From: Enterobacter sp. RHBSTW-00175
GTDB lineage: Bacteria > Pseudomonadota > Gammaproteobacteria > Enterobacterales > Enterobacteriaceae
Length of the DNA: 64,000 nt
Reading direction: 5' to 3'
Assembly: GCF_013927005.1 (NCBI RefSeq)
Contig: NZ_CP055931.1
Span: forward strand, 1-64,000
Shown here piece by piece: positions 27,927 to 55,822 of the stretch. The notes beneath the pieces are model-generated. The model did not search any database. It had not been told where the DNA came from and saw only the letters and a program-made list of their open reading frames with translations. How positions within the stretch are numbered: position 1 is the stretch's first letter; every line of letters starts with the position of its first letter. The position numbers were made by a program, and so were the translations under genes.

Positions 27927-28819
27927 TCCGTGGTCCCCGCTCTAGAGGGGGTGTCGAAACACTTCAGCAGCAGCGGCAGAGTCGGGTTGTCGTTGTCACT
28001 GGAAGAAATTATAGCGGCCGTCGGCGCCCGCGCCGATGGGAGCGGGATCAACGCGATATCCGGCCGGTAGATCACGCTGGTGATGGTCAAGCCGAAGCCC
28101 TGTTCGACCATCGTCAGCAGGGTTTCTCGGCTGACTTGTTGGATCGAGAGTTGAACCGCTCCGTCTCCGGCGCCCACCATGCGCCGGAGTATGCCAGCGA
28201 GCTCACGCCCAGCGCCATCCGAGCGAACGAGGAAGACTTCGTCACAAACGTCCTCCCACGACAGCTGTGGCCGTGCTGCCAACTCGTGAAGCGGGGACAA
28301 TGCCACGAACAGATCTGGTTCGCAGAGACGTCGAACTTGGAACTGAGGGCTCTTGCTCGCACTCAGGCTGATTGCTGCGTCCAGTAATCCGCGCTTCACC
28401 CCCAAAGTGTTTTCTTCTGAAGTGCCTTCCTCAAGCTTTACCTCGATCGTCGGATGTCTATTTCTGAATGCCGAGAGAATGTTGATGATCGGGCACGCCG
28501 GGAACGCTTCAAGCATTCCAAACCTCACGAGCCCGGTCTTGAGTTTCCGCGCGGAGCGGATCTCCGTTGCGGCGTTACGAAGGTAGCGCGCTCCCACCAC
28601 CGCTTGTTGAAGGAAGCGCTCACCTTCTGGAGTCAGCCCTGCCCCCGCTCGCGTACGCTTGAAGAGAGAAAAGCCAAGTTGGCGCTCAAACAGCTGCACA
28701 CGTCGGCTGACGGTGGATTGCGATATCGATAGGCGCTCCGCCGCTCGGCGGAAGCTGCCGGCCTCGGCGACCTGAACGGCGTACTTCAGGTATCGGAGAT
28801 CAAGAGTCAGGTCGGGCAT
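27923..28819 (-). CDS. LysR-family regulator 1
   Basis: A 298-residue regulator: N-terminal winged helix LKYAVQVAEAGSFRRAAERLSISQSTVSRRVQLFERQLGFSLFKRT, then a linker helix and a two-lobed effector domain from about residue 95. The effector part has AGREL and QGFGLTITSVIYRP segments usual for this family. It could bind one or more of the LysR-box-like elements in the island; which LysR does so is not decided by sequence. It meets the DUF2274 gene tail to tail. Confidence 0.87.
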   Translation of the reverse strand: MPDLTLDLRYLKYAVQVAEAGSFRRAAERLSISQSTVSRRVQLFERQLGFSLFKRTRAGAGLTPEGERFLQQAVVGARYLRNAATEIRSARKLKTGLVRFGMLEAFPACPIINILSAFRNRHPTIEVKLEEGTSEENTLGVKRGLLDAAISLSASKSPQFQVRRLCEPDLFVALSPLHELAARPQLSWEDVCDEVFLVRSDGAGRELAGILRRMVGAGDGAVQLSIQQVSRETLLTMVEQGFGLTITSVIYRPDIALIPLPSARAPTAAIISSSDNDNPTLPLLLKCFDTPSRAGTTD

Positions 28820-29048
28820 GAGACCCGTCCGATCATACCGGCGGTCTCATCGGCGAACCGCCTGCGCCCGGTGAGCGGCACCCATGCACGTCCACTTTCA
28901 TCGAGCCCACCCCCGCTAGCGCCTGGGGAACGAGCACGTCCGTTGATCTCAGATGTGGAATCCGAGCTGAGCCCCTCAATGAGCATGACCATGTCCGAAT
29001 CTGTCATAGATGCATGCGGCGGTCATACATTTTCACACGCTTGAAGTC
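28820..29048. other. Intergenic region between LysR 1 and MarR 1
   Basis: No clear gene. A 66-codon minus-strand frame (29007-28807) overlaps the LysR start and has no family I recognise. I see no LysR-box-like element here. Confidence 0.3.
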
Positions 29049-29063
29049 TATGCGCGAAGCATA
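29049..29063. promoter_or_regulatory. MarR-type palindrome, site 1
   Basis: TATGC, GCGAA, GCATA: perfect 5-bp arms, 12 bp before the MarR 1 start. Member of the TATATGCG/CGCATATA family in this island. Confidence 0.6.
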
Positions 29064-29075
29064 TATTCTTGCGGT

Positions 29076-29609
29076 ATGGAGCCTGAGGTCGCCAAGTACC
29101 ATTTAGGTGCACTCGCGTTGGCCGTTGCAGACAGCATCGCCAGTGTCTCGGCCTCGTTTTCACCAAGCGGCCCGGGGACCGCCGTGATGGTGTTACTCAG
29201 CATGGAGCCCGGACTGCCGATCAGCGTTTTGGCTACCTCGATCGGGCTTTCTCATGCCGGGACGGTGCGATTGATCGATAGGCTCGAGCGCGAACAGTTG
29301 GTGGAACGACGAAGACAAATCACCGACAGGCGGGCGCGCTTCATTCACCTCACCAATTCGGGGAAGAAGATAACGGACGCCTTGCTCAAGGCACGGGAGC
29401 AGGTGATCTCCGAATGTATTTCGCCCCTGTCGCCCAATGACCTCGACATTCTAGGCATGCTGTCGGAGCGGCTCCTTGTGGCAAACGGCTTCGACAAAGA
29501 TGGCTCGGTCAGCCTTTGCCATCTGTGCGGCTACAGCAGGATCGCGCCTTCCCGTGGTAAAGCTAAGCCGGGGCGCTCGCCACGCTGGAACGTCGCATCA
29601 GAAGGCTGA
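29076..29609 (+). CDS. MarR-family regulator 1 with C-terminal CxxC
   Basis: A 177-residue MarR-type winged-helix protein (start ATG 29076): LPISVLATSIGLSHAGTVRLIDRLEREQLVERRRQITDRRARFIHLTNSGKKITDALL. Unlike typical MarR proteins it has a late CHLCGY motif (about residue 150), giving a possible metal or thiol redox site. It is a paralogue of MarR 2 (same GLSHAGTVRL(I/V)DRL core). A palindrome sits just before its start, suggesting autoregulation. It is followed after 26 bp by the YeeE-like transporter, probably one operon. Confidence 0.82.
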   Translation: MEPEVAKYHLGALALAVADSIASVSASFSPSGPGTAVMVLLSMEPGLPISVLATSIGLSHAGTVRLIDRLEREQLVERRRQITDRRARFIHLTNSGKKITDALLKAREQVISECISPLSPNDLDILGMLSERLLVANGFDKDGSVSLCHLCGYSRIAPSRGKAKPGRSPRWNVASEG

Positions 29610-29635
29610 CGATATGATCAGGCAGGCTTGAAATA

Positions 29636-30595
29636 ATGGGATCGTTTGCGCTCGAACTTCTTCTATGCGTACTTGCCTTCGGGTTCGGATATGCGGCGAA
29701 CCAAGGCGGAACCTGTTTAGTGGTGGCCGCTCATGAGTTACACAGAAGACAGCCGCCGAAAATGTTCGTCGGATTTCTCGCAGCGTCGGCAGCGGCAGGC
29801 CTGGTTGCGGTCCCGATAGTCTGGACGGGAACACTGGGCGCAACACTCGCACCCTCGACCAGCATCAATTTCCTCCTGCTCATCGGCGCCATCGCCTTCG
29901 GCCTCGGCGCACTCATTAATGACACATGCCTGCTCGGATCGCTGGCGCGGCTTGGGGATGGGGAGATGCGACTTCTAGCTCTACCCTTGGGATTAACGAT
30001 TGGTATCTTGGCTGCCGACCATGGCAGGTTCGGCTACGATTCAACATGGCCAAGCTTAATCTCCAAACCGAGCGCAACAGGCCTCGTTACTCTCCTAGCC
30101 TTCCTAGTTGTGCTCGTGCTGGCACTCGTTTTCGTTTCCACGAAGAGCGTTCTGCGAACAAAGCCGGGTTGGTCGTTCGGCGCTTCGATGATTGGACTCG
30201 GTATCACTGGCGGACTTCTATATGCACTCTCGCCGGCCTGGACCTTCGCAGACGTGATTCAACGCGCCCTTCCTCTCAGAATGTCCCCGGCCGGCGAGGT
30301 CGCGCTCACTGCGGTGATCTCTTCGATCGCAGGCGCCCTAACCGCCTCCTTTCGCCAAGGCAATCTGCGTCTCCAACTGCCGACAGCCAATGGCATTCTG
30401 CGATCTGTCGTCGGCGGCACATTGATGGGTATCGGCATCGCGCTCATACCCGGCGGGAATGATGGGTTGATCCTCGCAGCGGTTCCGACTCTTTCACCTG
30501 GTGGGATAGTCGCCTACCTTCTGATGACGACGACAATCGTCTTCGGATTTGCAGCGCGTGGTAAGTTATTCCGGCGCTGCCTTTCACGGCCATGA
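29636..30595 (+). CDS. YeeE/YedE-family sulfur-compound transporter
   Basis: A 319-residue membrane protein with about nine helices. It carries the family cysteines in NQGGTC (Cys27) and INDTCLLG (about Cys98), which in YeeE relay thiosulfate through the membrane. A second repeat lies in the C-terminal half (GGTLMGIGIALIPGGNDGLIL) but lacks the cysteine. It probably imports or exports a sulfur species, in line with thiol and persulfide stress genes elsewhere on the plasmid. Downstream of MarR 1 on the same strand. Confidence 0.78.
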   Translation: MGSFALELLLCVLAFGFGYAANQGGTCLVVAAHELHRRQPPKMFVGFLAASAAAGLVAVPIVWTGTLGATLAPSTSINFLLLIGAIAFGLGALINDTCLLGSLARLGDGEMRLLALPLGLTIGILAADHGRFGYDSTWPSLISKPSATGLVTLLAFLVVLVLALVFVSTKSVLRTKPGWSFGASMIGLGITGGLLYALSPAWTFADVIQRALPLRMSPAGEVALTAVISSIAGALTASFRQGNLRLQLPTANGILRSVVGGTLMGIGIALIPGGNDGLILAAVPTLSPGGIVAYLLMTTTIVFGFAARGKLFRRCLSRP

Positions 30596-30633: not shown

Positions 30634-31044
30634 TTATCCCGACCGGGAATATCGGCTGACTAGCTCGTATGCCTTTGCAGGCCCTTGGACCATGATGACC
30701 ACTTCAAAGGCCGCCGGCCCCAGAATCCTGTAGGTTGCATGGTAGGTGTCGTCTCCGCAGGCATAGACGCCACTCGCTTCCAACCCGGTATCCGTCCGCG
30801 AGAAACTCAAGCTGAGGAACTGCGTCCCGATATGAGGTCCGTCTGCGAACTCGACGACAACACTGTCCTCGCTCAAGCGATAGCGATACTGCCGGCACGC
30901 GGAGAATACTCTGCCATCTGCCAGTGAGAGAATGCCGCTCTCTCGATAAGCGAGCGCGCCTTCGCCGATCGCTGCTACGATTTCGGTGGGCATGGTTATC
31001 TCGTCCAGGGCCGCGTCCATCCGTACAGGCTGGACGTTTGCCAA
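30634..31044 (-). CDS. DUF6314-family protein
   Basis: A 136-residue protein. It has the DUF6314 core: GALAYRESGILSLADGRVFSACRQYRYRLSEDSVVVEFADG...YACGDDTYHATYRILGPAAFEVVIMVQGPAKAYELVSRYSR. The expected N-terminal L-x-G-x-W-x-x-x-R-x-I motif is missing; residues 1-30 look unrelated, so the gene may be 5'-recombined. Function unknown; a lipocalin-like beta barrel is suspected for the family. It is transcribed away from the DUF417 gene across palindrome site 2. Confidence 0.6.
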   Translation of the reverse strand: MANVQPVRMDAALDEITMPTEIVAAIGEGALAYRESGILSLADGRVFSACRQYRYRLSEDSVVVEFADGPHIGTQFLSLSFSRTDTGLEASGVYACGDDTYHATYRILGPAAFEVVIMVQGPAKAYELVSRYSRSG

Positions 31045-31198: not shown

Positions 31199-31219
31199 GT
31201 ATATGCGTCGCGCATATAC
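31199..31219. promoter_or_regulatory. MarR-type palindrome, site 2 (best copy)
   Basis: Arms GTATATGCG and CGCATATAC around TCG: 9 of 9 pairs match. It lies 72 bp before the DUF417 start, between divergent genes. Confidence 0.75.
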
Positions 31220-31290: not shown

Positions 31291-31779
31291 ATGAGCATTT
31301 TCGACCGTTATGAATTTCTTGTCCCCGAGCACGGTCGGAGGGATCTTGGCCTGCTTAGATGGGCTCTCGTGATCGTATTTCTGTGGTTCGGCGCGATGAA
31401 GTTCACAGCGTACGAGGCCTATGGTATCGCCCCGTTTATCGAACACAGCCCGATCATGAATTGGCTCGGCATGTTCGGGACGCAGGGGCAAAGCTATTTC
31501 ATCGGCGTTATCGAGTTATCGACCGGTCTCGTTCTGATCCTTGGTGCATTTCGTCCACTCTTCTCTGCGCTAGGCGCACTAATGTCAGCAGCGACCTATC
31601 TGATCACGCTGACCTTTTTCATCACCACTCCAGGTGTCGCGGAGCAGACTGCCGGCGGCTTTCCTGCGATTTCGGCTGCACCAGGGCAGTTTCTACTGAA
31701 GGACGCAGTTCTGCTAGCGGCGTCCCTCGTGCTGCTGCGTGCTTCGGTCCGCCACAGAGGGGCGCTTGTGCTCTCGTGA
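31291..31779 (+). CDS. DUF417 (YkgB/RclC-like) membrane protein
   Basis: A 162-residue protein with four membrane helices. It matches DUF417: LLRWALVIVFLWFGAMKFTAYEAYGIAPFIEHSPIMNWLG, then GVIELSTGLVLILGAF, LITLTFFITTPG and APGQFLLKDAVLLAASLVLL. In E. coli the family member RclC (YkgB) belongs to the reactive-chlorine-responsive rclABC operon. That link is established for E. coli; here the role is inferred. It lies behind the best copy of the MarR-type palindrome. Confidence 0.83.
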   Translation: MSIFDRYEFLVPEHGRRDLGLLRWALVIVFLWFGAMKFTAYEAYGIAPFIEHSPIMNWLGMFGTQGQSYFIGVIELSTGLVLILGAFRPLFSALGALMSAATYLITLTFFITTPGVAEQTAGGFPAISAAPGQFLLKDAVLLAASLVLLRASVRHRGALVLS

Positions 31780-32020: not shown

Positions 32021-32262
32021 TCTGCACCTGCGCGGCCTGGATGACAGCGCTGACGCGGAGTGATTCTCGGGCGCGACCTACGGCGATTCCGAGCGAAAAG
32101 GCTTGCCCTATAGCCGCCAGGTATCAACGGTTCCGCGGCCTTAACGAGCCGGACCCGTTTTTTTCGGCGCGCTCGATCAGTCGAAATCCTCCGAAACCCT
32201 TCTAAAACAGGACATTTTCCACAAGCCGCGCGGAGGAAGAGGACCACGGTATGGCTTGCTGT
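32021..32262. other. Intergenic region before MarR 2
   Basis: No gene is visible. It holds a GAGGAAGAGGA tract at about 32233 and leads into palindrome site 3. Confidence 0.3.
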
Positions 32263-32283
32263 CTATGCTCCGCGCACATATAG
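32263..32283. promoter_or_regulatory. MarR-type palindrome, site 3 (imperfect)
   Basis: CTATG...CATATAG outer arms around CTCCGCGCA. It lies 8 bp before the MarR 2 ATG, the same placement as site 1 for MarR 1. Confidence 0.5.
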
Positions 32284-32291: not shown

Positions 32292-32831
32292 ATGGATGGA
32301 CCTCGAGATCGAAACATTTTCGGGGCGTTCGCACTCATGATCAGCGACGACATCGTTCGCGCTAGTTCATCGCGGGCGCCGGAAGCTGGACCCGCCGCCT
32401 CAGCGCTGGCGTTGCTCGCGCACAAGCCCGGGCTCTCGATCCGTATGCTTGCGATCGGGGTGGGCCTTTCACATGCTGGAACTGTTCGCCTGGTGGATAG
32501 ATTGGTAAGCGAGGGATTGATCGAGCGTAGGGAGCATTCGACAGACGGGCGCGCGCGATCCCTCTATCTTACTCCAACTGGCAAGGTCGCGAGCGACGAG
32601 GTCCTGGCCTCGCGCGATCAAGTGATTGCCGAAGGGCTATCGATCCTTAATCCAGACGAACTGAAAACCTTATCGGACATCGCTGAACGCGTTCTCCGAA
32701 ATCGCTTGGAAAACCTCGAGCAGTCATACCGCATCTGCCGCTTGTGCTGCTACGAGGGCTGCACGAACTGCCCCGTCGATGCCGAATTGCATGAGCGAGG
32801 TGTGGACCGCGAGAAGAACGACGACGCGTAG
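32292..32831 (+). CDS. MarR-family regulator 2 with Cys-rich C-terminus
   Basis: A 179-residue MarR-type regulator (ATG 32292): LSIRMLAIGVGLSHAGTVRLVDRLVSEGLIERREHSTDGRARSLYLTPTGKVA. The end carries five clustered cysteines, CRLCCYEGCTNCP (C-x2-C-C-x3-C-x2-C), enough for an iron-sulfur cluster, a zinc site or disulfide switching. It is a paralogue of MarR 1. An ATG 12 codons upstream is possible but would overlap the palindrome. I infer a thiol/oxidant sensor that represses itself and the island. Confidence 0.83.
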   Translation: MDGPRDRNIFGAFALMISDDIVRASSSRAPEAGPAASALALLAHKPGLSIRMLAIGVGLSHAGTVRLVDRLVSEGLIERREHSTDGRARSLYLTPTGKVASDEVLASRDQVIAEGLSILNPDELKTLSDIAERVLRNRLENLEQSYRICRLCCYEGCTNCPVDAELHERGVDREKNDDA

Positions 32832-33227: not shown

Positions 33228-34256
33228 TCAAGGCAGGGTAACGACGATTTTCGCTGCGGATACACCCGCCTTCAGGGCTTCCAAGGCAGCCTGGAGCATT
33301 TCAAGGCCCTGGCCCACGATCTTCGCCGGAGGGGCGGGGACGAACGTGCGCGCCGCGAGAGCCTGCGGCAGGAATTCGCGGTAGATCATTGGACCAACCT
33401 CGTCATCCTTGAGGCTCGTCCCGGAGATGTGCGTCGCCTCGACTCCAAATGAACGCTCGTCGGGCGGGGCCAGCGTCGCTGCCACCCGGCGCGAGCCCTC
33501 GCATCTCGCAACTACGGCAAAACAGTCTTTCATGTGACCGGTCGCGTGAAGCGTTCCAGCGAGACTGCGCCCGCGCATTGCCTCAATCACGTCTTCCACG
33601 ATGGCTGGACTCGAGTGGTCAAGAACCTCGCTTGCACCCAGCTCCTTCAACAGGCCGACGTTGCGCGCCGAAGCGGTGGCGACGCACCTGTAGCCCGACG
33701 CCACCGCGAGCTGGATGGCGTTGCAGCCAACGCTCGACGATCCACCCCAGACCAGAACGACCTCTGGACGCGCGGTCGGCGAGTGTAACGGTGGCGCGAG
33801 AGCCAACTGTGTCCGTCCGTAGAGCCCGCTTGCGGCGGTGCCAAGGCCAAGCGGGAGGACTGCCGCATCAGCGAAGGCAATGTTGTTGGGGATCGGCGCC
33901 GCCATGTGGTCCAGCACGATCGTGTGGTGCTGGAACGCACCCTGCGCAGGTTGATTTACGGTTGTCCCGACCGCCTGTCCGATGACTCGATCGCCGACCT
34001 TGAACCGCTCGACCGCGCCACCGACCGCCGCGACCTCACCGGAGACGTCGCTGCCGAGAATCGCGGGATAGTCGAGCCATGGCAAAAGCGCGACGTCCTG
34101 CAGAATCCAGTCGAGTGGGTTGATCGCGATGGCCGCGTTGCGGATCAATATCTCGTTCGCCGCCAGATGCGGCAGAGCGGTGACACCGATCCTCAGTGGC
34201 TGCCCCGGCGCTTTCTGCCAGGCGGCCTGATTAGTCACGGTTTCGGTCATCATCAA
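33228..34256 (-). CDS. Zinc-type alcohol dehydrogenase/quinone-reductase-like MDR protein 1
   Basis: A 342-residue medium-chain reductase. The GroES-like N-domain shows [16 protein letters not shown] and [27 protein letters not shown]; the NADPH fold shows [31 protein letters not shown]. It lacks the catalytic-zinc ligands, as in quinone and enal reductases. It probably detoxifies electrophiles using NADPH. The start overlaps the msrA stop by 4 bp; it is the third gene of the OsmC fusion-msrA-MDR operon. Confidence 0.83.
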
Positions 34257-34816
34257 CTCTTTCTGTCAAGTATTACAGCTGGGCGTTCGTCTGAGCGGTC
34301 CAACCGCCAGGTCGGGCGCACGAAGTGGCAGCTATAGCCCCCAGGATAGCGCACCAGGTATTCTTGGTGCTCTGGCTCCGCCTCCCAAAAGGGTTCTTCT
34401 GGGTTGATCTCCGACACGACCGGGCCTGGCCAGCTTCCTGATGCCTCGATTTCCGCGATGGTTGTGAGGGCGACTTCCTTCTGCACTTCGGTGGTGTAGA
34501 AAATCGCCGATCGATAGCTCGGACCGACATCGCTGCCTTGTTGCTCGTAGGTCGTGGGGTCATGTATCTGGAAGAAGAGTTCCAAGAGCGAGCGATAGGC
34601 GAGAACGGAAGGGTCGAAGGTCACTTCCACTGCTTCCGCATGGCCGTAATGTCTCGCGTAGGTCGGATCAGGCATTTCTCCGCCTGTGTAACCGACACGC
34701 GTCGAAATGACTCCCCTGGCTCGGCGCAGCAAATCCTCCATGCCCCAGAAGCAGCCGCCTGCGAGAATTGCTCGCTCTGTCGCGGCCGCCCTATTGCCGG
34801 TAGGCGATTGGCTCAC
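34253..34816 (-). CDS. msrA: Peptide methionine-S-sulfoxide reductase MsrA, copy 1
   Basis: A 187-residue MsrA. The active site is [16 protein letters not shown]; other motifs are [47 protein letters not shown] and the C-terminal [12 protein letters not shown] with a second Cys for disulfide recycling. It repairs oxidised methionine in the cytoplasm. I start at GTG 34816, which GGAGGGCG precedes; the longer frame to 34942 lies within the OsmC fusion gene. Only moderately like the second msrA (38932), so they are not a recent duplication. Confidence 0.9.
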
Positions 34817-34848
34817 AGTCCGTTCGCCCTCCTCCGTGTGCGCCACGG

Positions 34849-36081: not shown

Positions 36082-36182
36082 CAAACCTCCAGCACGCGGC
36101 TTGGCGGTTGCGCTCTCAGAACCTTCGACGGAGCTGAGCGGAGCGCACCGCCAACCGGTAATCGTCATCTCAGGCTATCATT

Positions 36183-36201
36183 TATATGTCTGGCGCATAT
36201 A
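36183..36201. promoter_or_regulatory. MarR-type palindrome, site 4
   Basis: TATATG and CATATA arms with TCTGGCG between. In the divergent promoter of the OsmC fusion and LysR 2; 40 bp centre-to-centre from site 5. Confidence 0.6.
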
Positions 36202-36224
36202 GACAAGCCCCTATACCATGATTA

Positions 36225-36239
36225 TATGCGCCAAGCATA
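36225..36239. promoter_or_regulatory. MarR-type palindrome, site 5
   Basis: TATGC, GCCAA, GCATA, with perfect arms as in site 1. It covers an upstream ATG (36226) of the LysR 2 frame, another reason to place that start at 36310. Confidence 0.6.
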
Positions 36240-36309
36240 CTTCTGCGACCTGCTTTCCAAAGGCGGTCTCACGGAAGAGGTATCAGTCAGGCGCGTGGGC
36301 CAAAGGACT

Positions 36310-37209: not shown

Positions 37210-37238
37210 CTATGGAAACTATACGCGCAGCGTATTGG
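37210..37238 (+). promoter_or_regulatory. LysR-box-like element copy b with MarR-type site 6 inside
   Basis: CTATGGAAACTAT then, at fixed spacing, ATTGG. Within it lies ATACGC, GCA, GCGTAT (37221-37235), a perfect 6-bp-arm palindrome. Without IS630 it would lie 94 bp before the msrB start. Confidence 0.65.
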
Positions 37239-37310
37239 ATAAATCTGGGGCGCACTGCGATAGTCGGCGCAATGACTGCAAAGATAAATGACAGTGTGTC
37301 GAGCTCTCTA

Positions 37311-38463: not shown

Positions 38464-38486
38464 TAGATTAATTATTGGAGACTATC

Positions 38487-41654: not shown

Positions 41655-41666
41655 AAATAAAGCACG

Positions 41667-48919: not shown

Positions 48920-49492
48920 ATGACCTCCCAGGTGACCGACGTTCTAGAAGCAGTCCAGTCATTCATCGCCAAAGGCTATGACCGCGAATACCGCGTCAAG
49001 GACGGCAATCTCGTCGATCTCGAACTAGGGTCAACCCTCGATGCATGCAGCATTCGCGTCGATGCGGCGTTGCGCCTCGAGAGCGGGGACGACGGCGAAG
49101 ATGCCTCCAACATCTACGCGATCACCGATCCGGCGACAGAGCATAAAGGCCTGTTGATCGACGCCTTCGACGTGTTCCACGAAATCTGCCCCCGCGACTT
49201 GTCCGAGCGCCTTGTGGCGCATCGGGAAACAGCACCGGCAGGTGACCAGGACGCGCCGAGCAAGCACGGACTACGGAAAGTCTACAAGAGCGAGTTTCAC
49301 AGCGATCCCGAGCGTTACGTTCTGCGCGAGGGCTTTCCAGACTTCCCGCCATGCCCTTTCGGCCAATCCTTCAGCATCCTCGGCTTCGATACCGCCGAGC
49401 AGGAATATGTCTGGCTCGTCACGAGCATCATTCGAGATCCTCGGCTGATCAGGGTTCCATACCAGGGCGAAGACGTCATCAGCGACGAATAG
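48920..49492 (+). CDS. Two-part hypothetical protein; N-part like proteins labelled PRPP synthetase
   Basis: A 190-residue soluble protein (ATG 48920). Residues 1-85 (VLEAVQSFIAKGYDREYRVKDGNLVDLELGSTLDACSIRVDAALRLE...YAITDPATEHKGLLIDAFDVF) match a small family often, and probably wrongly, named phosphoribosylpyrophosphate synthetase. Residues 110-190 (HGLRKVYKSEFHSDPERYVLREGFPDFPPCPFGQSFSILGFD...) are a separate module I do not know. It follows corA on the same strand. Confidence 0.55.
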   Translation: MTSQVTDVLEAVQSFIAKGYDREYRVKDGNLVDLELGSTLDACSIRVDAALRLESGDDGEDASNIYAITDPATEHKGLLIDAFDVFHEICPRDLSERLVAHRETAPAGDQDAPSKHGLRKVYKSEFHSDPERYVLREGFPDFPPCPFGQSFSILGFDTAEQEYVWLVTSIIRDPRLIRVPYQGEDVISDE

Positions 49493-49579: not shown

Positions 49580-50029
49580 ATGGACTGGAACAAGGACCAC
49601 ATACGAGAAACTATGCTCTTGCTGGAGACAGCAGCGTTGCACAGCGCTCGCGAAAACTACCTGGACTATGTCTCTACCGCTCGGCTCGATCGGAGCGAAC
49701 CGATCGAAAACGACGAACTAGCTCAGGCCGAGGTCGCGAGCGACTTCGCTGAAGCGCTCGATGACACGCTCCATGACTACGCCAATAAACTCGAAAAGCT
49801 CAGGACGATCGATTTCGGCCCCAAGTTGGCCGTCAACGAAGGCGCTGTCGTCAAGCTGTCCGGCCGCCACTTTGTGATCGCGGTGTCAACGAGCAAGTTT
49901 ACCTGTCAGGGGCGTGAGCTCATGGGCATTTCCACGATGGCGCCGATCTTCGAAGCGATCGAGGGTGCCCGAGCCGGGGAGACCGTGCAGTTCAACGGCC
50001 GGGACCTCACCGTAGAAGACGTGGAATAA
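49580..50029 (+). CDS. GreA/GreB C-terminal-domain-like protein
   Basis: A 149-residue protein (ATG 49580, with GGAGG 5 bp before it). The N-terminal half is helical and acidic with a YLDYVSTARLD segment. The C-terminal half (VKLSGRHFVIAVSTSKFTCQGRELMGISTMAPIFEAIEGARAGETVQFNGRDLTVEDVE) has the I-S-x-x-(A/S)-P-I-x-x-A-I-x-G-x-x-x-G-x-x-V pattern of the GreA/B FKBP-like domain. The N-terminal part is too short for the standard Gre coiled coil. It may bind RNA polymerase at the secondary channel under stress. Confidence 0.6.
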   Translation: MDWNKDHIRETMLLLETAALHSARENYLDYVSTARLDRSEPIENDELAQAEVASDFAEALDDTLHDYANKLEKLRTIDFGPKLAVNEGAVVKLSGRHFVIAVSTSKFTCQGRELMGISTMAPIFEAIEGARAGETVQFNGRDLTVEDVE

Positions 50030-50135: not shown

Positions 50136-50537
50136 ATGACAACACCTTCATTCTTCATCACCCCCGGATACGGGACGCGCCTGCATGACGCGCTTCATTA
50201 TTCTCAGGCAATGCGCATTGGTGACCGCGTGGAGATCTCCGGACAGGGCGGATGGAACGACGATCTCGTCATTCCGGAGTCGATTGAGGAAGAGATCGAG
50301 CAGGCGTTCAAGAACGTGGAACGGACGCTCGCGACCGCCGGAGCACGCTGGCCGCATGTGGTCCACGTCAATTCCTATCACGTCGGTGGATTCCCTCCCG
50401 TGATCAACGAAACAATGGCCAAGCTGTATCGCCACTACATGCCCGACCGCGCTCCAATCTGGACGCAGTTGGGAATCGAAGCGCTGGGGCTTCCAACCAT
50501 GCGTATCGAAATTCGCGTAACAGCTATCATCGCCTGA
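50136..50537 (+). CDS. RidA/YjgF-family protein
   Basis: A 133-residue Rid-family trimer-forming protein: ALHYSQAMRIGDRVEISGQGGW, EEEIEQAFKNVERTLATAGARWPHVVHVNSYHV, and the end LGIEALGLPTMRIEIRVTAIIA. The Arg of archetypal RidA (R105) is replaced in the NSYHV/RIEIR region in this subgroup, so deaminase activity is uncertain. E. coli RidA becomes a holdase chaperone after N-chlorination, which would fit the island; that is inference. Confidence 0.8.
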   Translation: MTTPSFFITPGYGTRLHDALHYSQAMRIGDRVEISGQGGWNDDLVIPESIEEEIEQAFKNVERTLATAGARWPHVVHVNSYHVGGFPPVINETMAKLYRHYMPDRAPIWTQLGIEALGLPTMRIEIRVTAIIA

Positions 50538-50567: not shown

Positions 50568-51839
50568 CTAATCCCGCACGCCCTGCGCCCGCTTCTCCAT
50601 GCATATCATCGTATCGAGAGATCCGGTTATCATCGGCGTGCTCGGAGAACGGGGGGCCGCCTTGGCCTGGTTGGCGCGCCTCGGCTGCCTGCGGGCGATG
50701 GCCAGCACTGCCAGGAGCGTGAGCAACGCCGCCGCATAAAGGAACAGGCCGCCAGGGCCGACGATATTCATTGCAGCTGCTCCTATTAGGGGGCCAGCGG
50801 CTGTCCCGATCCCGTTGAGCAACAGAAGCCCGCGCGCGGTGCCGAGTAGCCGACCGGCCGGAAGATCGTCGTTTGCGACGGCGAGACACAACGAATAAAT
50901 CGGGATGCCAAAGCCGCCGAACAGCGCACCTGCCGCAAGGAGCAGCGGCAGAGGCGCTTCCACCGCCAACGCTACGCCGATGGCAGACGCTGCGGACGCC
51001 AGCGCCGCACCGGCGATGACAAGATTCCGGGGCACTCGATCCGAAAGCCAACCGAGTGGCCAATGGAAGGCGAGCGTTCCACCAAGAACCGCAGCCATGA
51101 AGGCGGAGATACCGCCCACATCGAGGCCGATGCTCTGGGCGAAGTTCGCGCCCATGCCCCAGAAACCACCGATAGCCAGGCCGGCCAGGAAAGCGCCAGC
51201 CGCAGCGAGAGGTGATACGAGGACGAGGTCCCTGAACGCGACCCATTCCTGTTCCACCTGGGCCGGCGGATGACTGGGCAGCAAGGTGATCGGAACCACC
51301 GCCGCTGATATCAGCAGCGACACGATGAGGAACAATGTCACGTCGGCGGGCGGTGCGATGTTGAGTAACGCCTGCCCGATTGCCCATGAGCCCATAGAGA
51401 CAACTCCGAATATCGACAGGAGCTGCCCGCGTGTGGATGGCAATGCGTGGGCGTTGAGCCAACTCTCCGTTGCGAGGATCATGCCCGCGTAGGCGAAGCC
51501 GGTAATCAGGCGAAGCGGCATCCAGGCGATCGGCTCCACGAACGCCACATGGAGAAGGGCGGTCATCGAGGCAATGGCCGCGAAGCCGGCGAAGGTTCTG
51601 ACATGTCCCACGGAGACGATGATCGGTGGCAACACGAGCGCGCCGATCGTGAAACCCGCGAAATAGAAGGACATCATCGCGCTGATCGCGCCGGTCGAGA
51701 ACCCCTTATGGCCGGCTCTCACGATCAGGAGCGTGCTCAGCAGGCCATTGCCCAGCAGCAGAGCGGCGACGCTCAGCAGCAGCGCCGCCACCGGCGCGAG
51801 AACGAGGCCGCGCTTGCCCGCCGACCTCATGGTATCCAT
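50568..51839 (-). CDS. Major facilitator superfamily transporter (YcaD-like)
   Basis: About 423 residues with 12 probable helices. Features include GFAYAGMILATESWLNAHALPSTRGQLLS (loop 4-5) and the second-half motif GWLSDRVPRNLVIAGA, which matches the MFS loop 8-9 signature. It is similar in layout to YcaD-type sugar-phosphate/drug transporters; substrate unknown. Possible starts are ATG 51839 and 51830. It overlaps the DM13 gene upstream, so both belong to one leftward operon with the thioredoxin-fold gene. Confidence 0.82.
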   Translation of the reverse strand: MDTMRSAGKRGLVLAPVAALLLSVAALLLGNGLLSTLLIVRAGHKGFSTGAISAMMSFYFAGFTIGALVLPPIIVSVGHVRTFAGFAAIASMTALLHVAFVEPIAWMPLRLITGFAYAGMILATESWLNAHALPSTRGQLLSIFGVVSMGSWAIGQALLNIAPPADVTLFLIVSLLISAAVVPITLLPSHPPAQVEQEWVAFRDLVLVSPLAAAGAFLAGLAIGGFWGMGANFAQSIGLDVGGISAFMAAVLGGTLAFHWPLGWLSDRVPRNLVIAGAALASAASAIGVALAVEAPLPLLLAAGALFGGFGIPIYSLCLAVANDDLPAGRLLGTARGLLLLNGIGTAAGPLIGAAAMNIVGPGGLFLYAAALLTLLAVLAIARRQPRRANQAKAAPRSPSTPMITGSLDTMICMEKRAQGVRD

Positions 51840-52339
51840 CGCCGGGCTCGTTCTCGGGCCTGACTTGAGGGTTGATACTCTGCCGCACTGATGAACTGGT
51901 CGAATGCTTCGCACCAGATGACGACCGTGTTGTAGTCACGGACATCGATGCCGGCAGGCACCTCGACGATGAAGCCGTTGAACGTCTTCACATCGCCCAC
52001 GCGGACTGATCTGTCCTTGATTAGGAGAAAGGCCTCCTTCGTGTCGACGAAACGTGGTGCGAGGTAGAGCTTGTAGTCGGGACCAGGGGCGAGGCGCCCG
52101 ATATGGGCGATACGGTCGCGCGAGACCCGGATCTCGCCTTCCCCCCAGTGAAGCAGGTCGCTGCCTTTGAGATCGCGGGCCAGACGCCCTGCGTAGAGCG
52201 TCTCGGCTGAGATGGTCCGCAAGGCCGCCGCGTCCGGGGCCTGGGGGGCGGTCAGGATCGGCAGCGTGTAGACACCGCCCGCGAAGCCCATGGCGAGCAT
52301 CGCGAGATGGGTGGCAATCAGGATGACCCAGCGCCGCAT
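51827..52339 (-). CDS. DM13-domain protein with N-terminal membrane anchor
   Basis: A 170-residue protein: signal/anchor (WVILIATHLAMLAMGFAGGVYTL) then a DM13 domain (LYAGRLARDLKGSDLLHWGEGEIRVSRDRIAHIGRLAPGPDYKLYLAPRF...VKTFNGFIVEVPAGIDVRDYNTVVIWCEAFDQFISAAEY). DM13 domains carry a conserved Cys in the WCE motif, present here, and are predicted to take part in extracytoplasmic redox or electron-transfer chemistry. It sits between an MFS gene and a thioredoxin-fold gene, supporting a redox role. Confidence 0.82.
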   Translation of the reverse strand: MRRWVILIATHLAMLAMGFAGGVYTLPILTAPQAPDAAALRTISAETLYAGRLARDLKGSDLLHWGEGEIRVSRDRIAHIGRLAPGPDYKLYLAPRFVDTKEAFLLIKDRSVRVGDVKTFNGFIVEVPAGIDVRDYNTVVIWCEAFDQFISAAEYQPSSQARERARRWIP

Positions 52340-52342: not shown

Positions 52343-52813
52343 TTACACCAGCTCCAGTCCCTTCACGAGCTGATCGGCGTCGAGATGGAAGTCCGAGAAT
52401 ACGATGCGGCCGCCAGCGTCCATCACGGAGAACCAGGGCGTTCCCCGCGTGCGGTAGTCCTCCATGAAGGTGGGAAGCGTCGCGCCGGCAGGTGGCTCGT
52501 CCTGACCGAACGCGACAGGAAGCGCATACTTGAGCTGGTTCACGCGCAGCTTCTCGAAGGTGTTCTCATCCGCTCCTTCGAAGACGGTCTGGATCACCGC
52601 GAAGCCCACGCCCTTGGCGCTCAATGCACCATGCAACCTTTGTAGCGTCGGAAATCCATGCAAATGGCAGCCACGGCACCAGTGCTGGAAGGCGAAGAGG
52701 ACTTTCGGGCCGGTGCCGAGATCCGACAGCTTGAGCGGCGCGATGCTTTCTCCATCCGCGCCAATCCATCTCTGCACCCGCAGCTCGGGGGCTTGTCGTT
52801 CGTCGACGCTCAT
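52343..52813 (-). CDS. TlpA-like thioredoxin-fold protein
   Basis: A 156-residue redoxin. The active site is FQHWCRGCHLHGFPTLQRL (CRGC); the cis-proline region is RTRGTPWFSVMDAGGRIVFSD. The ATG at 52813 follows GGAGG by 5 bp; there is no signal peptide from this start, so it is probably cytoplasmic. It may reduce disulfides or peroxides. 3 bp from the DM13 gene. Confidence 0.85.
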   Translation of the reverse strand: MSVDERQAPELRVQRWIGADGESIAPLKLSDLGTGPKVLFAFQHWCRGCHLHGFPTLQRLHGALSAKGVGFAVIQTVFEGADENTFEKLRVNQLKYALPVAFGQDEPPAGATLPTFMEDYRTRGTPWFSVMDAGGRIVFSDFHLDADQLVKGLELV

Positions 52814-52964: not shown

Positions 52965-53270
52965 TCACCGCCGCCCCTCAATGACAAAGGCGCGATAGCG
53001 GGAACCGGCAAAACGGTGCGCAGCGATGGTTTGGTAGGCGGGGCTATGATACCAATCACGGGCGGCCTGCATCGTCGGGAACCGCAAAATTACGGCCCCT
53101 TCGACGGGCGGCCCCTCCAAATGCTCCATCGCGCCATAAGCGGCGAGAAAGGTTACGTCGTGGCCATCGAACGATGGGCCGACGCCTGCAGAATAGGTTG
53201 CGAGTTCTTCCGGATCGGTGGTTTCTTCGCGGGTGAAGACGACGAACGCTTCCATCTTAAAGTCTTTCAT
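52965..53270 (-). CDS. DUF1330-family protein
   Basis: A 101-residue ferredoxin-like-fold protein (MKDFKMEAFVVFTREETTDPEELATYSAGVGPSFDGHDVTFLAAYGAMEHLEG...GAVILRFPTMQAARDWYHSPAYQTIAAHRFAGSRYRAFVIEG). This is the DUF1330 pattern (R-F-P...A..W..S..Y), related to dimeric alpha/beta-barrel monooxygenases. Function unknown. ATG 53270 or 53255 are both possible. Confidence 0.82.
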   Translation of the reverse strand: MKDFKMEAFVVFTREETTDPEELATYSAGVGPSFDGHDVTFLAAYGAMEHLEGPPVEGAVILRFPTMQAARDWYHSPAYQTIAAHRFAGSRYRAFVIEGRR

Positions 53271-53317
53271 AAGGTCGCATCTGCAGGCCACCGCCGCTGG
53301 CGATGGCCTTAAAGTCG

Positions 53318-53749
53318 TCAGGCTGGCAGCTCGAACCCGATTTTCGTGAGTGCCTCGACGCACGCATCCTGATCCTGCTGATAGTTGCCTCCGGAGATGC
53401 CGATCCCGCCGATCAACTTCCCGTCTTCCAGGATCGGATAGCCTCCGCCGACAGCGACCATCCGGGGGCGATAGGCCAGCGGCGCCACTTTTGGATCGTT
53501 CGAAACATAGTCGTTCCAGACATGGGTGGGGTACCCAAACGAGGCGGAACTCCAAGCCTTGTCGATGGCAACATCGACGGTGAGAAACGGCGCGTCATCA
53601 GTGCGCTCGAACGCGCGCAGGTTACCGGTGGCGTCGACGACGGCGACCGCAGCCGGGATGCCGATTGTACGTGCCGCGGCGATCGCCGCGTCGATGAGGG
53701 CGACGGCGGTTTCGCGGTTGATCGAGGCGGTGGCAATGGATTTCGTCAT
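53318..53749 (-). CDS. HbpS/GlcG-family heme-binding protein
   Basis: A 143-residue protein of the GlcG/HbpS family: ALIDAAIAAARTIGIPAAVAVVDATGNLRAFERTDDAPFLTVDVAIDKAWSSASFG and the Gly-rich VAVGGGYPILEDGKLIGGIGISGGNYQQDQDACVEAL. HbpS members sense haem or iron-linked oxidative stress extracellularly; this one has no signal peptide, so a cytoplasmic role is likely. It lies 73 bp after the MDR 2 gene on the same strand, so it may share its promoter. Confidence 0.83.
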   Translation of the reverse strand: MTKSIATASINRETAVALIDAAIAAARTIGIPAAVAVVDATGNLRAFERTDDAPFLTVDVAIDKAWSSASFGYPTHVWNDYVSNDPKVAPLAYRPRMVAVGGGYPILEDGKLIGGIGISGGNYQQDQDACVEALTKIGFELPA

Positions 53750-53822: not shown

Positions 53823-54833
53823 TCAGAAGCCTTCGAGGACAATCTTGCCTCTTGCCGCGCCACTTTCGATCAGTGCGTGCACCGTCTTCAGATTGGCGGC
53901 ATTAATTGGCGACAATTTTTCGGTTAGCGTCGTGCGAATTTTGCCGTCGTCCACCAGCACCGCCAGCGAATTGAGGATCTTGCCCTGCTCATCCATGTCG
54001 GGCGTGCCGTAGAGCGACCGTGTGAACATCAGCTCGTGGTGGATCGACACTGCCTTGCGCTTGAACAGCATGACGTCGAGCGCCTTGGGATCGTCGATGA
54101 ATCCGAACCGTCCTTGCGGGGCGATCAGTTCGGCGATGTCGGATGCATGCTGCTCGGTATGCGTGGTCGAGAACACGAAAGCGGGAGCGCCGATGTTGAG
54201 CTCGGCAATCTGTGGCGCGAGCGGCCGAGAGTGGTCGATGACATGATGAGCCCCAAGCCCTTTAACCCACTCCTGGGTTTCCGGCCGAGAGGCGGTGGAG
54301 ATGACGATGAGATCCGTGCGCTGTCGAGCGATCTGGATGGCGATCGACCCGACCCCACCCGCACCACCGATGATGAGGATCGCCGCCGCCCCGGGAACGG
54401 GCTTCGTCACGTCCAGGCGATCGAACATGGCTTCCCAGGCCGTCAACGTCGTGAGTGGCAGCGCCGCCGCTTCCGCCCAGTCGAGCGACGCGGGTTTACG
54501 ACCGACGATCCGGGCGTCGACGAGATGGAACTCCGCATTGGTGCCAGGCCTTATGAGCGATCCGGCATAATAGACCTCGTCGCCTACCGCGAACTGCGTC
54601 ACGTCGGGGCCGACCTCTTGCACGATCCCGGCCGCATCCCATCCCAGCACTTTCCAATCGCCATCAGCGGGCGGCGTGCTGCTGCGGATTTTGTAGTCGA
54701 CCGGGTTGACCGAGACAGCCTTCACCTCAACCAGGATATCGCCTCCTTCAGCGACAGGCCGAGGCAGATCAATGTCGACCAGAGAGGCGTCCTCGGCGAT
54801 GGGTCCCGGAACCTTGTAACCAACGGCTTTCAT
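53823..54833 (-). CDS. Zinc-type alcohol dehydrogenase/quinone-reductase-like MDR protein 2
   Basis: A 336-residue NADPH-dependent MDR protein of the ZADH1 type: MKAVGYKVPGPIAEDASLVDIDLPRP, VSVNPVDYKIRSS, LGWDAAGIVQEVGPDVTQFAVGDEVYYAG, and the nucleotide fold ILIIGGAGGVGSIAIQIARQ. No catalytic-zinc ligands. It is only distantly similar to MDR 1. Its promoter region (54834-54990) carries an LysR-box-like element and a MarR-type palindrome, so it looks like a central member of the island regulon. Confidence 0.88.
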   Translation of the reverse strand: MKAVGYKVPGPIAEDASLVDIDLPRPVAEGGDILVEVKAVSVNPVDYKIRSSTPPADGDWKVLGWDAAGIVQEVGPDVTQFAVGDEVYYAGSLIRPGTNAEFHLVDARIVGRKPASLDWAEAAALPLTTLTAWEAMFDRLDVTKPVPGAAAILIIGGAGGVGSIAIQIARQRTDLIVISTASRPETQEWVKGLGAHHVIDHSRPLAPQIAELNIGAPAFVFSTTHTEQHASDIAELIAPQGRFGFIDDPKALDVMLFKRKAVSIHHELMFTRSLYGTPDMDEQGKILNSLAVLVDDGKIRTTLTEKLSPINAANLKTVHALIESGAARGKIVLEGF

Positions 54834-54934
54834 CGGTGTCTCCAGCTTGCTGTATCCTGAAGTCTTATCGATCAGATCGAAATTTCTTCCGAAATATACT
54901 CAGGATTTAAAGATTTCGCGTGTCAGACTATGAA

Positions 54935-54954
54935 GGTATGCGCGCAACATATCC
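54935..54954. promoter_or_regulatory. MarR-type palindrome, site 7 (imperfect)
   Basis: GGTATG...CATATCC arms around CGCGCAA. It abuts the LysR-box-like copy d and lies about 100 bp before the MDR 2 start. Confidence 0.5.
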
Positions 54955-54981
54955 AATAGCGGTACGACATAGTTTCCATAC
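54953..54981 (-). promoter_or_regulatory. LysR-box-like element, copy d
   Basis: On the minus strand GTATGGAAACTAT, then ATTGG at the same spacing as the other copies, 120 bp before the MDR 2 ATG. The 54982-55205 stretch beyond it shows no gene. Confidence 0.6.
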
Positions 54982-55205
54982 CTCGGAGCCGGATTCAGAA
55001 GTTTATCGAAAATAGCGGTTTATTGCTGTTCGGCGGGTGAGCATCCGGATGGAGGCGATAAGCGCCCAAGCGGTTGAGGAGTCGACCTCTCAGCGGTCGC
55101 GTTGGCAGGGGCGATCTCGCCCGCCGGTCTCACACCAACGTTGGCAAGCGACGGCGTCCGCTCGAAATCCGCTGACGGGGATACGCCTGCAATGCCGATT
55201 CGAAG

Positions 55206-55234
55206 CTATCGAAACTATAGCTACAGGGTATTGG
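55206..55234 (+). promoter_or_regulatory. LysR-box-like element, copy c
   Basis: CTATCGAAACTATAG, then ATTGG at fixed spacing, about 205 bp before the sulfite-oxidase-like gene. Region 55235-55438 is otherwise AT-rich and gene-free. Confidence 0.6.
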
Positions 55235-55438
55235 GAAATCATACTGGACTGACGCTATAGTCTTCACGCATAACCACGACTCAAAATGGTCCAACACTTT
55301 TCTCTACGCTAATAGAGAATCCGGTATTCTGATTTTCAGTGAATTGGCTCGTTCGGCGGTTGTGCGCGCAAAGATCTTTTACAGAATTCTGAACTGAATC
55401 AGGTTCTGGTCTGTCGTGACAAGCAAGGGGGTTTCGCT

Positions 55439-55822
55439 ATGGTCACCAGAGGTTTCACAGGCCGCGGTCCAGGCGGCGACCAGTCCGATCGGATACCGCC
55501 GGGTCAGCATCTCGTGGAGAATTTCCCTGTTCTGACGGCCGGGCCAACGCCGAGCGTGGAGCCCTCCGATTGGAAATTCACCGTCAAGATCGGTCCGAAG
55601 CCCGTCAAAGTGTGGAACTGGAGCGAGTTCAACGCCCTACCGAAGACCAAGATGACCCGAGACATTCACTGCGTCACGTCCTGGTCCAAGCTGGATACCG
55701 CCTGGGAGGGCGTACTCATCGAAGACATCCTTGCAGATGCAGGGCTCGATCGGCCCACCGATTTCGTCTTGGCGCACTGCTACGATAATTACTGGGGTCG
55801 GTTCCGGCTGAGGGCGAAATGA
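55439..55822 (+). pseudogene. Sulfite-oxidase-like molybdopterin oxidoreductase, truncated by Tn D
   Basis: From ATG 55439 (AAGGGGG upstream): MVTRGFTGRGPGGDQSDRIPPGQHLVENFPVLTAGPTPSVEPSDWKFTVKIGPKPVKVWNWSEFNALPKTKMTRDIHCVTSWSKLDTAWEGVLIEDILADAG. RDIHCVTSWSKLD holds the Mo-binding Cys. This is the first half of a YuiH/MsrP-like sulfite-oxidase-fold enzyme (normally about 200 or more residues). At 55794 it runs into the Tn D end and stops after eight foreign residues. MsrP-type relatives repair oxidised periplasmic methionine. The remnant is unlikely to be active. Confidence 0.85.

Follow-up and report, generated by a model that had tools for sequence, protein, structure and literature searches.

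A mobile alphaproteobacterial gene island on enterobacterial plasmids that may form one regulon against oxidants of protein methionine and cysteine

The window analyzed here is a stretch of 64,000 nucleotides (positions 1 to 64,000 of contig NZ_CP055931.1) from Enterobacter sp. RHBSTW-00175. It contains a gene island of ∼20 kilobases. In alphaproteobacteria this island is borne by a mobile element, and plasmids of gut and hospital bacteria carry it too. A preliminary description had listed its gene families, and Pfam places them at or near the positions proposed: two MsrA, MsrB, an OsmC fusion, DUF417, two MDR proteins, GST, RidA, DM13, an HbpS-like protein, YeeE, and four regulators (two MarR and two LysR). 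In the list below, palindrome refers to a first motif, TATATGCGNNNCGCATATA, also written TATATGCG-N3-CGCATATA, and the second motif is TATGGAAACTAT-N10-TATTGGATA; L numbers are individual loci.

19621..20946, no strand, displaced island piece (89.9% DNA identity to L013 4693-3375; matches L106, L113, and L025)
25421..27923, + strand, trbG, trbI, and DUF2274, end of the parent element's conjugation module (Pfam CagX, TrbI; pFBAOT6 annotation)
27926..28819, - strand, LysR1 regulator (Pfam)
29011..29065, no strand, two palindromes before marR1 (29011, three mismatches; 29047, one mismatch)
29076..29609, + strand, MarR1 regulator, Cys tail degenerate (Pfam; tail comparison)
29636..30595, + strand, YeeE/YedE-type sulphur transporter (Pfam Sulf_transp)
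30637..31044, - strand, DUF6314 protein (Pfam)
31200..31218, no strand, exact palindrome upstream of DUF417
31291..31779, + strand, DUF417 membrane protein, RclC/RcrB family (Pfam DUF417)
32262..32280, no strand, palindrome upstream of marR2, two mismatches
32337..32831, + strand, MarR2 regulator, invariant CxxCx4CxxCP tail (Pfam; alignment rows)
33228..34256, - strand, MDR-family oxidoreductase 1 (MDR1), accessory (Pfam)
34253..34942, - strand, MsrA1 (Pfam)
34849..36168, - strand, alpha/beta hydrolase-OsmC fusion (Pfam)
36183..36241, no strand, two palindromes 40 bp apart in the divergent osmC/lysR2 promoter (36183, exact; 36223, two mismatches)
36310..37185, + strand, LysR2, OxyR-like (Pfam; structure-sequence alignment; conserved Cys)
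37211..37241, + strand, exact second-motif site upstream of the msrB operon
38475..38930, + strand, MsrB (Pfam SelR)
38932..39471, + strand, MsrA2 (Pfam PMSR)
39604..40365, + strand, GST, last residues altered by transposon insertion (Pfam)
47860..48828, + strand, CorA-like transporter (Pfam)
48920..49492, + strand, conserved protein 1 of no named family (no Pfam match)
49580..50029, + strand, conserved protein 2 of no named family (no Pfam match)
50136..50537, + strand, RidA-like protein, accessory (Pfam)
50568..51839, - strand, MFS transporter (Pfam)
51827..52339, - strand, DM13 electron-transfer domain protein (Pfam)
52343..52813, - strand, CRGC redoxin-like protein (Cys 46 and Cys 49 in 22/22 rows)
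52965..53255, - strand, DUF1330 protein, accessory (Pfam)
53318..53749, - strand, HbpS-like protein, accessory (Pfam)
53823..54833, - strand, MDR-family oxidoreductase 2 (MDR2; TIGR02817 subfamily, 537.7 bits)
54950..54980, - strand, exact second-motif site before the MDR2-HbpS-DUF1330-redoxin-DM13-MFS genes
55207..55237, + strand, second-motif site before the molybdoenzyme gene, three mismatches
55439..55822, + strand, truncated molybdopterin-binding oxidoreductase of the SorA/MsrP-like superfamily (Pfam)

The limits of 28800..55822 proposed earlier enclose a real unit but are too narrow. The genes trbG-trbI-DUF2274-LysR1 (25421-28819) belong to it, with trbG-trbI-DUF2274 adjoining the island in several alphaproteobacterial loci, and the segment at 19621-20946 is a displaced piece. 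Translation of this piece revealed a glutaredoxin-like frame with an in-frame stop ahead of CPFC, a DUF427-like frame, and a small protein of no named family; a Pfam search of 19705-20031 and 20305-20727 gave no match. A weak second-motif site (20807, five mismatches) lies ahead of a gene truncated by an ISPa38-type transposon. Insertions have disrupted parts of the plasmid copy of the island: ISEc33, an element identified from how related plasmids are annotated, now sits between the second-motif site at 37211 and msrB, a transposon at ∼40307-47855 cuts corA off from its operon promoter, and the molybdoenzyme is indeed broken, as noted before, by a Tn3-type transposase gene. Intact relatives of the molybdoenzyme exist, a full-length one being L023:743-1345. 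Two gene starts deserve comment. The GCFWG active site of MsrA1 is present in the longer frame and is omitted by the 162-aa pFBAOT6 annotation, and because the start annotated for marR1 lies within the palindromes, translation more probably begins at ATG 29076. Outside the island, past a Tn3-type transposon, a sigma-70-family (ECF-like) gene occurs at 61413. AlphaFold models of conserved proteins 1 and 2 had mean pLDDT values of 52.7 and 57.3 and were left unused.

The family assignments were then refined by profile scores. The DUF417 protein scored 102.7 bits against Pfam PF04224 (gathering score 27) and 89.2 bits against the NCBIfam RclC equivalog, far below the cut-off of 275, so the RclC-like protein of the preliminary description is better called RclC/RcrB-like than RclC. 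In the accessible portions of PMC9600549 and PMC12096828, resistance of E. coli to HOSCN/HOCl is associated with RclC/RcrB, which are DUF417 proteins. The full-length molybdoenzyme relative scored 31.2 bits with the MsrP model (cut-off 207), and its SoxC-type (39.9 bits) and SorT (28.6 bits) scores each fell below their own cut-offs. For the CRGC protein (52343-52813), neither Pfam nor NCBIfam gave a match; its CxxC is conserved.

The island is a real conserved unit. Absence of co-occurrence had been named beforehand as an outcome that would speak against one; among 80 public loci, core genes of at least 50% identity accompany the OsmC fusion in 56/56 loci with a close relative of it vs 0/24 with a distant paralogue. 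In 25 non-redundant groups, where the OsmC fusion is present in 25/25 by selection of loci and contig ends truncate many of the loci, the core consists of MsrB and MsrA2 (24 groups each), LysR2, CorA, redoxin, and conserved protein 2 (23 each), conserved protein 1 (22), and MarR2 and GST (21 each). DUF417 is in 13 groups. The full gene set had been presented as one block; this holds for the core, but MDR1 (2 groups), DUF1330 (4), RidA (5), HbpS (7), and MDR2 (8) are accessory. Core gene order is mostly fixed, with breaks in some loci such as L026, and gene content differs from locus to locus. dN/dS values of 0.03-0.37 in the computed pairs (eight loci vs pFBAOT6) indicate purifying selection. 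Stretches of relatives with second-motif sites also hold Grx, Trx, Prx, MsrA, EgtB/EgtD, and flavodoxin-fold reductase genes, and in 20 loci the MDR1 neighborhood includes a transporter that weakly matches ZupT.

Locus comparison bears out the earlier view of a mobile, alphaproteobacterial unit of oxidized-methionine and thiol repair genes. In alphaproteobacterial loci the island is cargo adjoining a trb-type conjugation module, and the parent carrier is probably an integrative element. In Aurantimonas coralicida, the conjugation genes required of an integrative conjugative element (DUF3363/Relaxase, T4SS-DNA_transf, TrbL, TrbE, and a TrbB-like T2SSE) adjoin the cargo. A 15-bp repeat of a tRNA-Arg adjoins a Phage_integrase gene ∼86 kb away from the tRNA, but the identical stretch begins 171 bases before the tRNA and the second contig ends before the integrase. 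The island ranges from alpha- to beta- and gammaproteobacteria, including Citrobacter, Klebsiella, and Enterobacter plasmids, some from wastewater and hospitals. A core covering at least 80% of the query was found in 144 of 72,556 plasmid records; this replaces an earlier count (at least 5000) inflated by IS elements. A MarR2 homology search, which does not include genomic context, returned 484 relatives and shows only that the protein is widespread.

The palindrome is located upstream of marR1-yeeE, DUF417, marR2, lysR2, and osmC-msrA1-MDR1, and in relatives also ahead of an extra GAPDH gene (15/17 loci). In the 5.57-Mb host genome it occurs exactly at two places, both in the island, and with up to one mismatch at eight, three of them in the island (reversed control, three). 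In all, 233 sites were found in 52 island loci (0.249/kb) vs 7 in 25 control loci (0.014/kb). Because the weight matrix was built from island sites, these counts and those of strong sites given next are partly circular. The controls have three island hits or fewer and include L062, which has real sites (3 of the 7); L015, L017, and L027 (4-5 hits) were placed in neither set. In representative loci, a strong site lies upstream of lysR2 (23/23), osmC (22/23), and marR2 (22/22), and directly upstream of DUF417 in 5/11, yeeE in 2/9, MDR2 in 1/5, and marR1, whose start is hard to place, in 2/7. The exact core was present in 14/20 carrier genomes (reversed control, 0), in non-carrier genomes single motif hits were as common as those of the reversed motif, and 4/24 control loci carry a site with up to two mismatches. 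Within the window, the 19 places with up to three mismatches compare with 7.95 ± 2.84 in shuffles (largest 16). Since this count is weak, the case for the motif rests on its conservation and on the sites with up to two mismatches, of which 5/5 are in the island. At L099, the palindrome lies ahead of a CxxC-type MarR, beside other enzymes.

Palindrome sites of at least 8 bits were found before none of msrB (0/23), redoxin (0/19), GST (0/21), and corA (0/23), and the search therefore turned to the second motif, which was first noticed by eye in the window and afterwards tested in other loci. It is found upstream of the msrB-msrA-gst-corA operon, the MDR2-redoxin-DM13-MFS operon, and the broken molybdoenzyme, and a palindrome-like site at 37219 was reassigned to it. 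With up to three mismatches, the host genome has three places, 3/3 in the island (reversed control, 0). Island loci have 107 sites vs 0 in 22 control loci, 100 shuffles gave none, and a site lies upstream of msrB in 24/24 representative loci having that gene. In relatives, Dps-like ferritin genes (L122, L123) have a site immediately upstream, as does a 6-phosphogluconate-dehydrogenase-type gene (L121). Two loci speak against pairing LysR2 with this motif: L062 has sites but its locus contains no LysR2, and L053 has one site and a LysR2 of only 42%. New here is that two conserved motifs mark the main operons and appear, by being shared, to link them; our literature search found no earlier description of either motif. 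These common cis elements suggest one regulon.

Besides the two motif classes, each fixed in its position within promoters, the putative sensors show invariant cysteines in alignments. Both MarR proteins had been credited with extra cysteines; this stands for MarR2, with tail Cys 134, 137, 142, and 145 in 27/27 rows, but the MarR1 tail is degenerate. In LysR2, Cys 144, 170, 198, and 238 are invariant, and Cys198 (34/34 rows) aligns with the OxyR Cys in 6g1b and is one column off in 4x6g. LysR2 scored 71.2 bits against the NCBIfam OxyR model, below the cut-off of 329. The OsmC domain has Cys 319 in 38/38 rows and Cys 381 in 37/37.

We consider it probable, from gene content and shared motifs, that the island acts as a single mobile regulon that helps cells survive oxidation of protein methionine and cysteine, the oxidants most likely being reactive chlorine or thiocyanate species. 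The presence of DUF417 (RclC/RcrB family) would by analogy make reactive chlorine or hypothiocyanite the likeliest trigger; singlet oxygen, hypothiocyanite, peroxides, and electrophiles are possible ones. Which protein binds which motif is something we infer from sequence. MarR2, with MarR1, would repress its own, yeeE, DUF417, osmC-msrA1, and lysR2 promoters through the palindrome. Oxidation or metal loss at the CxxCx4CxxC tail would release MarR2, and LysR2 would then be made. Activated by oxidation of a Cys at, or adjacent to, the position used by OxyR, LysR2 would switch on msrB-msrA2-gst-corA, the molybdoenzyme, and the redoxin-DM13-MFS genes through the second motif. The products would repair methionine sulphoxide, reduce hydroperoxides and modified thiols, and, through DUF417, protect the membrane. 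A bolder version, which we put forward tentatively, is a self-contained oxidant regulon that moves horizontally together with a two-step switch of its own. MarR proteins with the CxxCx4CxxC tail would then form a new class of sensor, for redox state or metal, placed above an OxyR-like LysR activator, and a single transfer could supply recipient bacteria of other classes with a complete response to reactive chlorine or thiocyanate whose wiring is internal.

The same genes could be read as a general response to electrophiles and quinones or to organic peroxides, with reactive chlorine as one inducer of many. The MDR, GST, and OsmC genes, the reductases in relatives' stretches, and the enzymes at L099 would fit, but three Msr genes, the molybdoenzyme, and DUF417 indicate methionine oxidation, and we regard this reading as unlikely. 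Alphaproteobacteria also produce Msr, glutaredoxin, GST, OsmC, and quinone reductases in defense against singlet oxygen, and the island could be a mobile version of that photo-oxidative response. Its gene families and origin agree with this, as would the ECF-like gene, though that gene is outside the island. However, DUF417 members of known phenotype protect, in the accessible part of the literature, against chlorine/thiocyanate species, and the scanned island genes, a subset of the ORFs, include no ChrR-, photolyase-, or sigma-type gene; we regard a singlet-oxygen regulon as improbable. That a trb module merely accumulated unrelated stress genes at a hot spot, with no shared function, would account for the variable content, the broken order in loci such as L026, and the several accessory genes. 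This is very hard to reconcile with a core order that is largely fixed, with signs of purifying selection in every gene tested, and with operons sharing two motif classes.

If the oxidant-regulon reading is correct, conjugative elements move a complete oxidative-stress regulon with its own sensors and switches rather than single resistance genes. The two motifs make this regulon directly testable and recognizable in other genomes, and DUF417, a family of known phenotype, gains a second regulatory setting in which its mechanism can be studied.

Several known systems invite comparison. The transmissible locus of stress tolerance, common to Gram-negative plasmids and genomic islands, is likewise a mobile stress island; it carries ClpK-, Hsp20-, FtsH-, YfdX-, and HdeD-type genes, none of which were found among the scanned window proteins. 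OxyR is, like LysR2, LysR-type with the aligned Cys, but the putative LysR2 targets differ. The rcrARB regulator of uropathogenic E. coli is of the TetR family, and we know of no second regulatory tier there. By name rcrARB has three genes, and its regulator family differs from that of the island; as in the proposed scheme, a redox-inactivated repressor controls a DUF417 protein (PMC9600549, accessible portion). The 28-kb insertion of pFBAOT6 (IncU, NC_006143) is the same DNA, 99.9-100% identical over shared pieces. Within the literature covered, only PMC5756416 concerned this DNA, and in its accessible text the insertion figures as a mobile segment, neither a regulon nor gene function being analyzed; PMC10269605, as far as its accessible text goes, is unrelated. 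RclR/RclABC of E. coli, as far as the accessible sources describe it, also has a redox regulator that works through cysteine and controls a DUF417 membrane protein, but it is chromosomal and without Msr/OsmC/GST operons. RclR is an AraC-type regulator. RclA-like and Egt genes lie near the island and are candidate members; close to one related island, a flavoprotein disulphide reductase matched PDB 6kgy (RclA) best, barely ahead of similar enzymes.

Scanning one genome per species with the alpha/beta hydrolase-OsmC fusion and keeping the best 80 of 129 relatives yielded 56 close loci (OsmC fusion at least 62% identical) and 24 loci with distant OsmC paralogues. Of nine core genes (identity of 50% or higher), 56 of 56 close loci contained one or more and 48 of 56 contained three or more, some loci with fewer than three being cut by contig ends; the 24 distant-paralogue loci contained none of the nine. 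The preliminary description had proposed a mobile alphaproteobacterial island for defence against reactive chlorine, oxidised methionine and electrophiles; Pfam scans found the gene families it named, and its observation holds and is stronger than was visible from the sequence alone. Among these best 80 of 129 relatives, the carriers include Sphingomonadales, Hyphomicrobiales, Roseomonas and a Caulobacteraceae MAG, with near-identical copies in, among others, Thauera, Zoogloea, Brachymonas and enterobacteria.

Merging near-identical loci reduced the 52 loci with at least six island hits to 25 groups. Both msrB and msrA2 are present in 24 of the 25; lysR2, corA, the redoxin gene and one unknown protein in 23 each; a second unknown protein in 22; and marR2 and gst in 21 each. 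Less constant are MFS (16/25), DM13 (15/25), msrA1 (15/25), DUF417 (13/25) and yeeE (11/25). Compared pairwise between pFBAOT6, an IncU plasmid from Aeromonas caviae, and eight loci, the computable dN/dS values were 0.03-0.37; MDR1 gave none, one pair was saturated, and several dS values were above 1 and are rough.

The island intergenic regions share a palindrome, TATATG-N7-CATATA (the first motif). All five window sites with at most two mismatches (29047, 31200, 32262, 36183 and 36223) are in island promoters, and such a site was found in 56 of 56 close versus 4 of 24 distant-paralogue loci. The host genome (5.57 Mb in four contigs, the window lying on contig C2) has two exact places, both within the island; at one mismatch or fewer the island holds three of eight, and the reversed motif used as control gives three. 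The 52 island loci contain 233 first-motif sites in 937,567 bases, and 25 control loci contain seven in 486,376 bases, three of them in a locus (L062) that is really a partial island. Counts with a weight matrix are partly circular, because it was built from island sites. With this matrix and a threshold of 8 bits, sites precede lysR2 (23/23 representative loci), osmC (22/23), marR2 (22/22), DUF417 (5/11), marR1 (2/7) and LysR1, the divergent partner of marR1 (4/4); control sequence had no site of at least 10 bits.

The exact core TATATGCGNNNCGCATATA was present in 14 of 20 genomes reached via island loci, with none for the reversed control. When 385 evenly drawn alphaproteobacterial genomes were scanned at one mismatch or fewer, three matched: an island carrier (G001) at six places, and G163 and G239 at one each. 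Five genomes had one place each for the reversed control, so a single hit is no more than expected by chance. The near-exact G163 match (locus L099, G163:C1:250739) precedes a further MarR gene, whose product has a CxxCx4CxxCP tail, beside other enzymes. This single case hints that the tail class goes with the first-motif operator, and both this operator and the MarR subfamily may predate the island.

The msrB and redoxin operons had no first-motif site of at least 8 bits upstream in the representative loci. They share a second, spaced motif, TATGGAAACTAT-N10-TATTGGATA, which occurs in the window as follows.
37211, exact, before the msrB operon
54950, exact, before the redoxin operon
55207, three mismatches, before the molybdoenzyme

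These are the only places in the host genome with at most three mismatches; the reversed control gave none, and 100 shuffles of the window did not contain the motif. When up to four mismatches are allowed, the 52 island loci contain 107 sites and 22 control loci (422,803 bases) contain none; 51 of 56 close versus 0 of 24 distant-paralogue loci have one. The motif precedes msrB in all 24 of the 25 representative loci that have this gene. Searching 16 of 20 carriers plus the host, we found it in 15 of 17 genomes, the two without it (G017 and G020) having loci that lack a close LysR2. Five of 115 evenly drawn alphaproteobacterial genomes matched, a carrier at four places and four genomes at a single place with three mismatches; two genomes matched the reversed control, once each. 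Across the 56 close loci, a LysR2 orthologue and the second motif occur together in 49, LysR2 only in two (both without msrB), the motif without a close LysR2 in two, and neither in three, two of which are cut. From this co-occurrence and the gene order we infer that LysR2 would be the protein that binds the second motif.

LysR2 and MarR2 are the putative sensors. Four cysteines of the OxyR-like LysR2 are invariant in the covering rows (34/34 for three, 33/33 for Cys238). Cys198 aligns with an OxyR cysteine in 6g1b, which we take to be the peroxidatic one; in 4x6g it falls one column away from the equivalent residue. MarR2 ends in a CxxCx4CxxCP tail that 27 of 27 rows keep unchanged; in MarR1 the tail is degenerate. 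Both cysteines of the OsmC domain and the CxxC of the redoxin are kept.

Relatives suggest further candidate members of the regulon. The gene for GAPDH, a classic thiol target, is present in 17 loci, with a first-motif site at most 300 bases upstream in 15. Also nearby are a transporter that matches ZupT weakly (20 loci), NAD synthase (13), a full-length molybdoenzyme (10), RpiA (5), a flavin reductase frame (4; in L020 and L023 it directly adjoins the molybdoenzyme), EgtB- and EgtD-type ergothioneine genes (4 each) and a single RclA-like flavoenzyme. More second-motif sites, immediately upstream of Dps-like ferritin genes (L122 and L123) and of a 6-phosphogluconate-dehydrogenase-type gene (L121), were found in Devosia, Sphingopyxis, Sphingomonas and Hyphomicrobiaceae. 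Genes for thioredoxin, glutaredoxin, DUF427, peroxiredoxin, flavodoxin-fold reductase and MsrA occur in the same stretches, which points to thiol and methionine oxidation as the probable common theme. In a Devosia locus (L119, G013:C78), both motifs and an ABC amino-acid importer accompany a second MarR-MsrB-LysR2 set ~20 kb from the first island; therefore, the regulon can be duplicated within one genome.

The DUF417 proteins RclC and RcrB are tied to HOSCN/HOCl resistance in E. coli (PMC9600549, PMC12096828; review PMC7464077). The island DUF417 gene shares its putative operator, the first motif, with the regulator genes, and two relatives (L096 and L102) have a further MarR-DUF417 pair with this putative operator. 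On these grounds, reactive chlorine or thiocyanate would be our first choice of trigger, by analogy; singlet oxygen, peroxides and electrophiles are possible alternatives. The preliminary interpretation is right in kind, with reactive chlorine staying a candidate reading.

The proposed mobility is borne out by conjugation genes. In several alphaproteobacterial loci trbI/trbG adjoin the island. A 57.5-kb stretch that Aurantimonas coralicida and Sphingobium phenoxybenzoativorans share at 99.98% identity begins 171 bases ahead of a tRNA-Arg gene and runs to the Sphingobium contig end. In Aurantimonas, a tyrosine integrase gene lies ~86 kb from tRNA-Arg, beside a 15-bp repeat of that tRNA, with relaxase, coupling-protein, TrbB-, TrbE- and TrbL-type genes in between. 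The island is cargo of a conjugative element, whose exact ends are only provisional. Its IS-free core (33231-37182) matched 162 of 72,556 plasmid records, 144 with 80% or more of the query covered, and 119 of the 162 are predicted to be conjugative. Five of 5,426 E. coli genomes have the core, on a plasmid in every case. MDR2-HbpS-DUF1330 alone was seen on Enterobacter and Pseudomonas plasmids (matches H59-H61, 88.5% identity); therefore, this trio also moves independently.

The window copy is 99.9-100% identical to the insertion in pFBAOT6 across shared pieces and is interrupted by the following insertions.
ISEc33, between lysR2 and msrB
40307-47855, ISPa38-type transposon between gst and corA, carrying a HepT-like RNase gene and a cupin gene
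Tn3-type element, where the molybdoenzyme is cut off

Since insertions now lie between msrB and its motif and between gst and corA, this copy may have only partial function. By eye, a nucleotidyltransferase-like frame precedes the HepT-like gene. The annotated pFBAOT6 marR1 start overlaps two putative operator sites (29010-29076), and ATG 29076 is the likelier start; in the MsrA1 annotation of that plasmid (34256-34942 region) the start was placed too late, so that the active-site cysteine is missing.

Other modules were observed in the window. Positions 2563-9051, possibly another redox or sulphur module, encode an IS110-type transposase, a PEMT-like methyltransferase, a rhodanese-domain flavoprotein disulphide reductase, an ArsR regulator, and Dps/ferritin-like, thioesterase, NifX-like and DUF134 proteins. 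At 10594-18157, a Tn3-type transposase fragment and a resolvase are followed by TetR and a MacA/MacB/outer-membrane-channel-like efflux set, a cytochrome c'-like protein among its members. On the far side of the Tn3-type transposon interrupting the island, an ECF-like sigma factor gene is followed by an ArsP_1-type permease gene (61413-63113).
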